This document shows positions 14,404-51,477 of a stretch of DNA of 64,000 nucleotides, piece after piece. The notes beneath the pieces were generated by a model that was given only the letters and a program-made list of their open reading frames with translations, was not told the DNA's origin and did not search any database. The stretch spans positions 32,812-96,811 of the forward strand of contig PLUL01000014.1 of the NCBI GenBank assembly GCA_003164895.1, written 5' to 3'. The position numbers and the translations under genes are program-made. The number at the start of each line of letters is the position of its first letter. Position 1 is the stretch's first letter. Source of the DNA: Bacteroidota bacterium (GTDB lineage Bacteria > Bacteroidota > Bacteroidia > Palsa-948).

Positions 14404-14676
14404 AATTACAATTTTTACTTTTTCAATTCAAATAGTTACTTTCCTGATTATGATAAGTGTTTTCTGAATTATGAAAACAACTATCCTACTTACAATAGTT
14501 ACTTTCGTAATTCAAATAAGTGTTTTCCTGATTACAATAACAACTATCCCAATTCAAATAGTTATTATCGTAATTACAATAGTTGTTTTCCTAATTACAA
14601 TATGTACTATTCCAATTACAATATGCCATATCGTAATTACAATATGCCATATCCTAATTACGATAAGTACTATTTC
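14404..14676. repeat. Tandem array 1: 13 units of exactly 21 bp
   Basis: Units begin at 14404 and recur every 21 bases to 14676 with no insertion or deletion. The first half (AATTACAA or a variant) is most conserved and the second half varies. Units 2-4 and 5-7 form a 63-base higher-order repeat, and units 11 and 12 differ at one base. The core ACAATAGTTACT is the reverse complement of the core of array 2 at 32111. A plus-strand frame stays open through it and would encode hydrophobic heptads (I-T-I-V-x-x-x). Third codon positions are the least variable in that frame, which argues against coding. It lies past the stop of the 14812 gene. Confidence 0.9.
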
Positions 14677-14705
14677 CGTTAAAATTCGTGAAATTTTAAA
14701 AATAC

Positions 14706-14737
14706 AAACAGGAATCCCGATTGGAATTCCTGTTTTT
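14706..14737. terminator. Terminator-like hairpin between array 1 and the FnIII-like gene
   Basis: AAACAGGAAT (14706-14715) pairs with ATTCCTGTTT (14726-14735) around a 10-base loop, and a run of five T ends at 14737. On the plus strand it would stop transcription leaving the array. On the minus strand it is about 75 bases past the 14812 gene stop and has a weaker T-run. Confidence 0.6.
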
Positions 14738-14811
14738 GGTAAAATTAAGGAGTTATTGAAAATTAACCTTTCAACTTGCTAACTTTCCAATTTTTAAACT
14801 TATTATCTTAT

Positions 14812-15462
14812 TTACAGCACATATATTGCCGGTGCAGTAATCCATACTTGCTCGCCGCCATTTTTTTCACTCAAAACAATTCTGCCACGGTAGAACATTC
14901 TGGTACCGGGCGCTTTTCCATGTGTATATGTTGAGCGACTGCCTGGCGTTGTTTTTATAGTGGTAAAAGTGGTTCCATCGGCACTTTCCTGTACTTCGTA
15001 TGTTGCTGCTAATCCTTGACCGGCTGCTTTAAAAGTAATATCAAGCACACCTGCCTGCGTATCATCGTTTACAACTTCAAAATCTTTTTTCACTCTAACC
15101 GCTTGAGCCCGTGTGGTCAATCCGCACTCGGTTACTACCTGAGTTGCGGTAACTTCATCGGGTGCCAAATTTGCTGCTGCCTGCACGAGCAATACAAAAC
15201 TGCGCACATCGGTTATCACCGTTGCCAGAATGGTATTTCGAGCATCCGCAGTTCCGGCAGTGCGTGTTTTCACAGCGGCTTCTGCCGCAAGGGCTTTGGT
15301 TACATTGCCCTGCGCAGTGGTTAATGTGTTAGCCGCAATTGTAACGTGCGTATTGCCGGGAGCTTTGCCTAATGCGGTATAAAACGTGGTTACATCGGTT
15401 AAAAGCTGCGACACATTTTCTTCAAAATAAAAAATTGCCGCTACGTGTTTTTTCTTAATCAT
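14812..15462 (-). CDS. Small non-exported protein with helical N-terminus and FnIII-like C-terminus
   Basis: Function unknown. No signal peptide is visible. Residues about 1-130 look helical and Ala/Thr-rich (TIAANTLTTAQGNVTKALAA; TILATVITDVRSFVLLVQAA). Residues about 140-216 show a beta-sandwich pattern like fibronectin type III: YEVQESADGTTF, then a Tyr-Arg strand MFYRGRIVLSE and the end VWITAPAIYVL. The protein at 32387 has the same two-part plan. It begins 12 bases after the XRE-like gene stop, so the two form an operon. Array 1 lies just downstream. Base composition is richer in G+C than nearby genes, hinting at recent acquisition. Cytoplasmic localisation is inferred. Confidence 0.6.
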   Translation of the reverse strand: MIKKKHVAAIFYFEENVSQLLTDVTTFYTALGKAPGNTHVTIAANTLTTAQGNVTKALAAEAAVKTRTAGTADARNTILATVITDVRSFVLLVQAAANLAPDEVTATQVVTECGLTTRAQAVRVKKDFEVVNDDTQAGVLDITFKAAGQGLAATYEVQESADGTTFTTIKTTPGSRSTYTHGKAPGTRMFYRGRIVLSEKNGGEQVWITAPAIYVL

Positions 15463-15474
15463 AATAATTAGTGT

Positions 15475-15840
15475 TTAATTGTGGTTGAACTTATGTTGAA
15501 TGAATAATTTTTGAATGTCTGCTTTATGTTTTATCACATTTTTATTAGTGGGAACTTTATCTGGGAAAAAGCTGCAATGTTTTCCCATTCTTTTTTCTAC
15601 CTTTAAAAAAAACTGTTCTGTGGTAATGCCAAAATATGCGCACATTCGGCAAATGCTTTGCGCGTGTAGTTTGCGTTTGTTGCTTTCCACCAAAGAAAAA
15701 TTAATGCCTGTTTCACGCTGGCATGTTTTTAACGAAACATGCGATGCAATTCTTATTTTTTTTACCACCGTGCCCATAACATTTGCATAATGAGCGTTGC
15801 ATTGTTTTTTTTGTTCCGAAAGTGTTGTGTTGTGTTTCAT
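15475..15840 (-). CDS. XRE-like helix-turn-helix protein
   Basis: Likely DNA-binding regulator. The 121 residues contain a helix-turn-helix pattern at about 22-78: VVKKIRIASHVSLKTCQRE, then INFSLVESNKRKLHAQSICRM in meaning, then YFGITTEQFF, which matches the XRE/Cro layout where the last helix precedes a 'G-[IV]-[TP]-x-x-x-[FL]F' ending. The usual Gln and Ser contacts are partly replaced, so recognition may be unusual. It is the first gene of a two-gene unit with the FnIII-like protein. Two CGAA-type dyads lie 22-65 bases before its ATG and are candidate autoregulatory sites. Confidence 0.65.
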   Translation of the reverse strand: MKHNTTLSEQKKQCNAHYANVMGTVVKKIRIASHVSLKTCQRETGINFSLVESNKRKLHAQSICRMCAYFGITTEQFFLKVEKRMGKHCSFFPDKVPTNKNVIKHKADIQKLFIQHKFNHN

Positions 15841-32110: not shown

Positions 32111-32362
32111 AACAATTGTGGCTTAACAATCCACAACAGATAATAGCGAGGTAACTATTGTGCCTACGCTGCTATCTATTGTGGAATCGTTATTGTCTGC
32201 TGCCAATTCGCTGCTAACTATTGTGCCTTCGTTAGCATCAATTGCCGATTCGCGATTAACCATTGTTCATTCGTCAGTAACTACTGTGCATTCGTTACTG
32301 ACTATTGTTACTTCGTTAGCATCAATTGTTGATTCGTTACGAAGTATTGTTACTGTGCAAAT
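32111..32362. repeat. Tandem array 2: about 12 units of 21 bp
   Basis: Units starting at 32111 recur every 21 bases to 32362 without indels; the first two and last are degenerate. The core AGTAACTATTGT is the reverse complement of the core of array 1. Units 6-7 (32216-32257) are repeated by units 10-11 (32300-32341), an 84-base higher-order period. A plus-strand frame is open through most of it and would encode S-L-L-T-I-V-x heptads; the minus-strand frames have repeated TAG/TAA stops. It fills the gap between the 31292 gene start and the 32387 gene stop. Confidence 0.88.
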
Positions 32363-32386: not shown

Positions 32387-33067
32387 TTATGATGGAATTA
32401 ATTCAGAAATTGAATCGCTCCAGTGAAAATCATCGGCATTTGCACTCACCGTTGGATATACGCTTTTTCCTATGGGTGGTGTAAAATCATATTGAAAATA
32501 CACTCTTACATCCTGTGGCAGATTATTAATAATAACCGTTGATTTATGGGTGCTTTTTACCTGAATCCAAATATTTTGATCCTTGCTCCACCTCCAGTGA
32601 TATACCGAACCTACTCCTGTAACAGGCGCTTGCAATGTTGCGCTGCCAGAATCGGTAGTCAATACATTAAATTTATGCTGCTGCGGATTTCCGTGTGTAG
32701 CAGGTTTCAATCCAAAGCGTCCAAGTATGGTGGTTATCTTATCCAAATTGCCCGGGAATTTTTGGTTGTTGGTGCTGTCAATAAATCCAACAATCAGATC
32801 GGTGCTGTGCAACAGTGTGCTTACATCGGCATTCAGTTTTGAAGTAAGCGAAGTGGATGTCGAGTTTTGCATGTTTAAAATATCGCCATTCACATCGGCT
32901 ATTTGTCCGTTGTAAATTGCCGAACCAATTGGTGATGATCCTCCAGGTACATCGGGGTCTATGCCCAATTGCTTTTGTAAACTTGTGCAGAACGGAGTAA
33001 GGAGTTCGGGTGTGTTGTCGTGGTAATCGCGCAGTGCTCTTATCCACGGAATAGAATTTGTGCTCAT
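32387..33067 (-). CDS. Small non-exported protein with helical N-terminus and FnIII-like C-terminus (second copy of plan)
   Basis: Function unknown. The 226 residues lack a signal peptide. The N-terminal 130 residues are helical (SIPWIRALRDYHDNTPELL; LTSKLNADVSTLLHSTDLI) with GGSSPIGSAIYNG between. From about residue 135 a fibronectin-III-like pattern appears: YHWRWSKDQNIWIQV, STVIINNL, VRVYFQYDF. The plan matches the 14812 protein, although direct identity is low. As with that gene, a 21-bp array lies just downstream of its stop (24 bases). No regulator gene is adjacent. Confidence 0.58.
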   Translation of the reverse strand: MSTNSIPWIRALRDYHDNTPELLTPFCTSLQKQLGIDPDVPGGSSPIGSAIYNGQIADVNGDILNMQNSTSTSLTSKLNADVSTLLHSTDLIVGFIDSTNNQKFPGNLDKITTILGRFGLKPATHGNPQQHKFNVLTTDSGSATLQAPVTGVGSVYHWRWSKDQNIWIQVKSTHKSTVIINNLPQDVRVYFQYDFTPPIGKSVYPTVSANADDFHWSDSISELIPS

Positions 33068-50888: not shown

Positions 50889-51159
50889 CAAAGTAAGATG
50901 TGATTTTTGTTCCGGCAAAGATAGGAGATTTTGCAAGGACGATAAAATTGCAACTGTTTTACCGATGTTGTTTTTTGTTTTGAACATAGCGTTTTGTTTT
51001 TGCTTTGCATTTCATCTGTTCCACGCAGAAGAAAAGCTTTATTATTTTTTTATTGCGTTAAGGGAATTAAAAAAAGAAAAGAGTAAAAGAAACGAGGAAT
51101 TTATTTCCTGTTCTCATTCTTGTTTTCTTCCCGAAACACTGAATGTTGCCGATGTGGAA
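50889..51159 (-). other. Leader between the cobalamin riboswitch and the receptor start
   Basis: About 270 bases of 5' leader with no gene of its own. It holds T- and A-rich tracts and no strong hairpin followed by T. Since no clear terminator is visible, control may act on translation, though the start codon is far from the aptamer. Confidence 0.5.
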
Positions 51160-51345
51160 TCGGCAGTTTTGCACCGGCAGGTCTTCTGGCTTGTCCTTCT
51201 TTTAACACCTTCCCGTTCCAGTTGGAACAGTGGTTAATTTGTTAAAAGCTTTTCAACGGACTTACAGCAGCGGGAACTGCCCCTGATTTTAACAGGGTTC
51301 CCTTTTAATCCTGACGTTTGCAGTCAGGAAACCAATGCAGGGCGA
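51160..51345 (-). promoter_or_regulatory. Cobalamin (B12) riboswitch
   Basis: On the minus strand the aptamer shows the conserved blocks in order: GGGAACCCTG, AATCAGGGGCAGTTCCCGC in part, CTGTAAGTCC, GGGAAGG and the B12 box GCCAGAAGACCTGCC (plus-strand bases 51176-51190). A hairpin, CTGACTGCAAACGTCAG, lies just before the core. The element lies upstream of a TonB receptor on the same strand, the classical B12-repressed target. A TACTTTCG box (51343-51350) may be its promoter. Confidence 0.93.
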
Positions 51346-51477
51346 AAGTATTATTAATGAAGAATTGTACATAAACTATTTCTTAAATTTTATTAACCGC
51401 AATTTAAATAATGAATAGAAACTACTCTTTAAGTAGAAGTTAAAAGTAAAATTAAGTAACTATATATCTATTTACAC

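Follow-up and report, generated by a model that had tools for sequence, protein, structure and literature searches.

Some described systems resemble, in one respect or another, the tandem array considered here. Plasmid replication iterons are tandem sites of ∼17–22 bp that share a face of the helix and adjoin a gene, and the excisionase Xis forms micro-filaments. In the literature searched, the nearest described case is that of the TAACTGA heptamer arrays, which occur in Beggiatoaceae, Cyanobacteria and some Bacteroidetes, being intergenic and located near start codons (PMC4679880). As to anatomy, the best precedent is ParR on the type II plasmid centromere parC: ParR of plasmid pSK41 binds 20-bp repeats, with parC placed upstream of the operon, and the repeat families of parC differ between plasmids, each ParR binding only its cognate parC (PMC9426499), while the DNA wraps round a superhelix of ParR (PMC5016525).

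The sequence under study, hereafter the window, is the whole stretch of 64,000 nucleotides that was analysed. Array 1, at positions 14404..14676 with no strand assigned, comprises 13 tandem units of 21 bp with the dyad-symmetric consensus AATTACAATAAGTACTATCCT, a copy number to be read with the caveat that the window comes from a draft genome in 80 contigs and repeats may be misassembled. The exact period without a single indel, as well as the near identity of units 11 and 12 (20 of 21 positions in common), agree with the original prediction. Identity at a lag of 21 is 0.65, whereas 5,000 shuffles of the stretch averaged 0.32 and never exceeded 0.42; unit columns 2, 3, 7, 15 and 17, counted from 0, are invariant, and the dyad of the consensus is significant against column permutations (p=0.002). 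The reported repetition of units 2–4 as units 5–7 is evident from 48 of 63 common positions, but it is not a single duplication: any three-unit block agrees at 42–49 of 63 positions with the block three units further on, so that a 63-bp register spans the whole of array 1. Growth in steps of one and three units, which had been deduced from this repetition, is plausible, with the correction that the 63-bp register is array-wide. Between the array and the gene end, reading of the sequence evidences an inverted repeat, AAACAGGAAT...ATTCCTGTTT, at 14706..14735 (no strand assigned), whose letters are similar to units of sister arrays of the same genome (contigs C37 and C59). Array 2 (32147..32356, again with no strand assigned) has 10 units of 21 bp, is unlike array 1 in sequence and has a non-significant dyad (p=0.22, column permutations). 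An Rfam scan of the window yielded no match to the arrays, only a tRNA and an ordinary cobalamin riboswitch (51159-51351, minus strand). Also, array 1 does not have the make-up of a CRISPR, all its units being divergent and unique spacers being absent, and no cas gene was seen among the neighbour genes of the array loci.

When set against the known systems, the arrays share with parC direct repeats in tandem, spaced by roughly two helical turns, and the position upstream of a gene, as well as a family-specific repeat sequence; a cognate DNA-binding protein is predicted for the arrays and a solenoid is proposed. Unlike parC, the arrays are chromosomal and occur many times per genome, their neighbour is a protein with a helical and an Fn3 domain, and the candidate binder is of the HTH_17 type with a coiled coil, rather than a ribbon-helix-helix protein as ParR. 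Among the features expected of a parC-type locus, tandem direct repeats are found in the arrays, and an adjacent gene for a candidate binder is present in Sphingobacterium only. No ParM motor NTPase gene figured among the 25 commonest families listed in a Pfam scan of 109 neighbours; as this motor gene was sought beside the arrays and not found, we do not file the array as a partition locus. Iterons are alike in being gene-adjacent tandem sites that face the same way on the helix, but the arrays have no plasmid context, and no gene for a Rep initiator was found among the neighbours scanned. The TAACTGA arrays are also intergenic and tandem, occur in Bacteroidetes too and have a 7-bp unit that divides 21; however, the unit of the present arrays is 21 bp with no 7-bp sub-period (in 56 arrays neither lag 7 nor lag 14 is enriched), its sequence is not conserved and the distance to the gene is larger. 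In the case of Xis, the likeness is that an HTH_17-type protein may form a filament on repeated sites, whereas the match of the Sphingobacterium protein to HTH_17/Xis is weak and neither an integrase nor an attachment site was seen.

The 21-bp period recurs throughout the genome of origin. Apart from array 2, arrays of equal period are found on contigs C7, C37, C59, C12, C35, C39 and C20; a lag scan of a 413-kb sample of this genome, covering periods 13–40, returned 14 regions at period 21 and no other period except the harmonics 14, 28 and 35, and TRF on the genome's sample assigned period 21, 42 or 63 to 8 of 9 non-coding arrays of at least 55 bp. A period-21 signal at L098 3381-3620 falls within the ORF of an Asn/Ser-rich secreted protein, and is thus coding and unrelated. 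A genome of the same genus bears an array with units such as AATTCAAATTGTTACTTCCTG. The search for the array at DNA level in 60 relatives gave a clear match at just one same-genus locus, because the array sequence turns over. Indeed, the unit sequence is locus-specific, differing at each locus, and the half-unit ATTACAA, formerly regarded as the conserved element, does not persist: what loci have in common is limited to the period and, in many cases, the dyad symmetry.

A distinct scenario holds for length. Over 105 loci the best period is 21 in 76, a 63-bp multiple in 5, 22 in 5, 20 in 3 and 20.5 in 1. The occurrence of periods 20 and 22 rules out a codon-based cause and, together with 20.5, ties the unit to the helix, in agreement with the suggestion that 21 bp represents two helical turns presenting equal faces. 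Copy number is steady as well, with a median of 14 units (interquartile 12–16). In neutral bacterial DNA indels amount to roughly a tenth of substitutions, and thus the finding of 13 phase shifts against ∼5,370 differences between neighbouring units (56 arrays, 17.1 kb) points to selection on length, an effect exaggerated by the choice of arrays by their period, which lowers the indel count. The period is kept across species and phyla, so that the selection on spacing put forward in the original prediction is upheld, and recurrence in relatives, which it had named as support for a function, was found: six of six orthologous Sphingobacterium loci hold ∼15 units of 21 bp despite a changed sequence.

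The key to the array is the adjoining gene family, which the original prediction did not contain. Members of one protein family adjoin both window arrays as well as the same-genus array; this family is undescribed and consists of proteins of ∼200 aa with a helical domain and an Fn3 domain. In the window these are P0001 (216 aa; 14812..15462, minus strand), with a helical N-terminal and an Fn3-like C-terminal domain, which is included in alignments A1, A2 and A4 and is recovered by the model of A4 (65 family members) at E=1e-26, and P0002 (226 aa; 32387..33067, minus strand), the second family gene, which adjoins array 2. Both window arrays are located 3' of their family gene, array 1 at ∼135 bp and array 2 at ∼30 bp. 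Profile searches find the family widely, with at least 20 copies in some genomes, and its hosts belong to Bacteroidota, Ignavibacteria, Verrucomicrobiota and Acidobacteriota. The AlphaFold model of a relative, L101 (pLDDT 96), has four helices and then a seven-strand Fn3 domain, Foldseek on the family model returned Fn3 domains (E 7.5e-6), and fn3 (PF00041) is matched by 25 of the 65 members, Pfam detecting the Fn3 part only; the C-terminal half of the family is thus modelled as an Fn3 fold. No NCBIfam model matches the three members tested, nor L101. No viral contig was found encoding the family, and a prophage origin was rejected on the grounds of this absence and of PHROG and viral fold matches that cover the Fn3 domain only. 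Directly upstream of the P0001 gene lies an ORF of 121 aa (15475..15840, minus strand) which is helix-turn-helix-like by eye and is a candidate array binder; no Pfam family passes for it, and it has few relatives overall and no close relatives beside other arrays.

The association between arrays and genes was quantified on loci fetched by protein homology alone, in which arrays were then sought by TRF and autocorrelation. Over 76 loci (443 kb), 63 arrays lie within 1 kb of a family gene, against 3 at other places (binomial p=5e-19); 58 of the gene-adjacent arrays are 5' and 5 are 3' of the gene, at a median distance of 228 bp. In the sample of the genome of origin an array is present at 7 of 7 intact family genes, and the family is abundant in 10 of 12 genomes rich in the period pattern, compared to 19 of 137. 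Two arrays of this genome have no Fn3-family gene and lie instead 70–90 bp from genes for other small proteins. One of the latter belongs to family C (L100:721-1230), which is unrelated to the Fn3 family and has relatives of ∼240–290 aa in three other genomes, and 21-bp arrays occupy the usual 5' place at 6 of 7 of its loci, which constitutes an independent replication of the arrangement of array and small-protein gene. Family B (L093:2248-2622, 90 bp from its array) has just two copies, both in this genome. Conserved neighbour genes are found only in Sphingobacterium, plus a collagen-like gene in Verrucomicrobiota, the remaining neighbours being unrelated.

In six Sphingobacterium species a fixed order is kept, namely a coiled-coil/HTH gene, an array of 14–16 units, the Fn3 gene and a DUF5675 gene. 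The match of the HTH part of the first protein to HTH_17 does not reach the curated cut-off, yet it recurs consistently in distant relatives, and in the AlphaFold model of this protein the long helix is confident and the HTH part reaches pLDDT 51–74 only. The arrays fall into three motif classes, TACTG-N4-CAGTA, TTGTACAA and AAACT-N6-AGTTT, the last one accompanying a third HTH type. Locus L165, from S. paucimobilis, is informative, as its coiled-coil part is 77% identical to that of L171 from S. faecale and its HTH part 52%, and it carries TTGTACAA, as in L166 from S. pedocola, in place of TACTG-N4-CAGTA, with an Fn3 protein that is 82–84% identical to the TACTG group and 74% to L166. This pattern indicates that the motif follows the DNA-recognition part, and not the rest of the HTH protein or the Fn3 gene, a covariation that involves about eight loci in three classes and in which HTH divergence partly follows phylogeny. 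In one Sphingobacterium genome (L218 and L224, about 943-2303), the HTH gene and the array occur twice, in a duplicated block of 1.36 kb (97.7% identity) which stops at the array end and leaves the Fn3 gene outside; divergence within this block is several-fold higher in the array units than in the HTH gene, with no indel. Joint duplication and covariation suggest that the coiled-coil/HTH_17 protein is likely the binder in Sphingobacterium, as predicted from these sequence comparisons. A linked HTH gene of this kind was not found beside arrays outside the genus, and a search with the Sphingobacterium HTH in 395 genomes of the class gave no match, the genus being apparently absent from that sample. 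Two further observations concern these loci. A long conserved inverted repeat, TTAGCGCGAATTAGCGC...GCGCTAATACGCGCTAA, with arms ∼35–45 bp apart, is found in the interval between array and Fn3 gene (L163, L171, L172 and L173, about 2680-2770). Broken copies of the HTH gene occur at L232-L235, three of the four adjoining intact arrays of 15–16 units with other motif variants.

We consider it rather probable that the arrays are non-coding rows of about 14 cognate protein sites, phased by two turns, which nucleate a filament or solenoid and form a cassette with a small-protein gene. The some 14 copies of the site, set two helical turns apart, would all lie on one face of the DNA; a dimer would bind each palindromic site as double-stranded DNA, and adjacent dimers would contact each other via the coiled coil, thus assembling into a filament or solenoid that covers ∼300 bp. 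Site sequence and binder would change together, giving each locus its own specificity under a retained geometry, and the complex borne by the array would probably control or mark the adjacent gene, as suggested by the usual array place 100–400 bp 5' of it. The same account may extend to the window's array. What weighs against it is that both window arrays lie on the 3' and not the 5' side of their gene, that array 2 and about half of the arrays have no significant dyad, that some arrays (C37, C59) are without a family gene close by, and that the linked HTH gene was found beside arrays of Sphingobacterium only.

The consensus dyad is significant (p<0.05 against column permutations) in 24 of 45 arrays (Fisher 4e-23), and non-significant in about half. 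These palindromes bear on the alternative that the array acts as RNA, which we regard as unlikely; here the transcribed array would be a leader or a small RNA, each unit forming a hairpin, and would either be a ligand of the small protein or regulate the mRNA of that protein. The mostly 5' location would suit such a role, and the fold of array RNA is more stable than that of arrays with permuted columns (mean z −3.4), but palindromes raise stability anyway and this measure does not separate the two readings. Compensatory changes are what a hairpin would require, and no excess of covariation is present in 43 arrays (permutation test, p=0.26); in the clearest motif, TACTG-N4-CAGTA, there are almost none: 286 pairs are intact, 75 have changed on one side only, 2 carry compensatory changes and 2 are double-broken. 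Palindromic consensuses without compensation have the look of sites for a dimeric protein on double-stranded DNA, and not of hairpins. Furthermore, a hairpin loop would not fit into TTGTACAA sites, and arrays are found 3' of genes too. An RNA role is worth checking in one case only, a Pyrinomonadaceae array (L140 2488-2763, TTGCA..TGCAA), with a fold z of −13 versus permuted arrays.

Slightly less likely still is an ordinary minisatellite, in which slippage and unit duplication generate the array, whole-unit copying holds the period and proximity to the gene is historical. Stepwise growth is in fact visible in the 42- and 63-bp higher-order registers and in near-identical neighbouring units, and 15 of 336 sites differ between two array copies of a single genome. 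A neutral origin is nevertheless contradicted by a single period shared by four phyla with unrelated sequences, by the near absence of indels in spite of ∼35% unit divergence, by the adjacency to two unrelated gene families, and by the narrow range of copy number along with the conserved dyads. Intrinsic curvature or flexibility from phased A/T tracts is very improbable: the unit equals two helical turns and many arrays are AT-rich, but the period is kept in GC-rich arrays, and in 56 arrays the autocorrelation of identity and of A/T steps is negative at 10–11 bp and no 10.5-bp A/T phasing is detected, which contradicts this reading. A coding role, in which the 7 codons of each 21-bp unit would specify one heptad of a repeat peptide, has hardly any chance of being correct, since, even if open frames exist (such as 14471-14782, 103 aa, or the frame from 14404) and the L216 array reads in frame into its gene, it is contradicted by related arrays with periods of 20, 20.5 and 22, by stops in several frames, by frame, strand and peptide all being unconserved, and by third codon positions varying least in the ATG ORF 14471-14782 (13 minority letters versus 29 and 24 in column tallies), as originally noted and in support of the absence of a protein function claimed on that basis.

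Taken as non-coding rows of protein sites, the arrays may, tentatively, represent an undescribed class of chromosomal element in at least four phyla, made of ∼14 palindromic sites at exactly two turns, the sequence of which would be free as long as the cognate protein changes with it; each array would hold its own address, and orphan proteins (the helical-Fn3 family and at least one further family) would work together with the nucleoprotein filament. In the open-access literature searched, we found no account of 21-bp arrays linked to the Fn3 family. A geometry that is kept while the sequence is not is hard to spot by ordinary alignment, and the arrangement may therefore have escaped notice. 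In Bacteroidota, a common family of orphan genes seems to come with a DNA array of its own, specific to each locus, which offers a first handle on the role of these proteins. Also, natural pairs of DNA-binding protein and site with swapped specificity are at hand, and the cultivable Sphingobacterium species make bench tests possible.

Some arrays have other neighbours. Sister arrays of array 1 with related units, at L088 13223-13683 (C37) and L091 19072-19350 (C59), have no family gene nearby and are adjoined by genes for secreted proteins. At L070 1435-1689 and L075 1256-1642, 21-bp arrays lie beside helical-looking orphan proteins (121 aa with a Pro-rich tail, and 235 aa, respectively), which are perhaps additional array-tied families.
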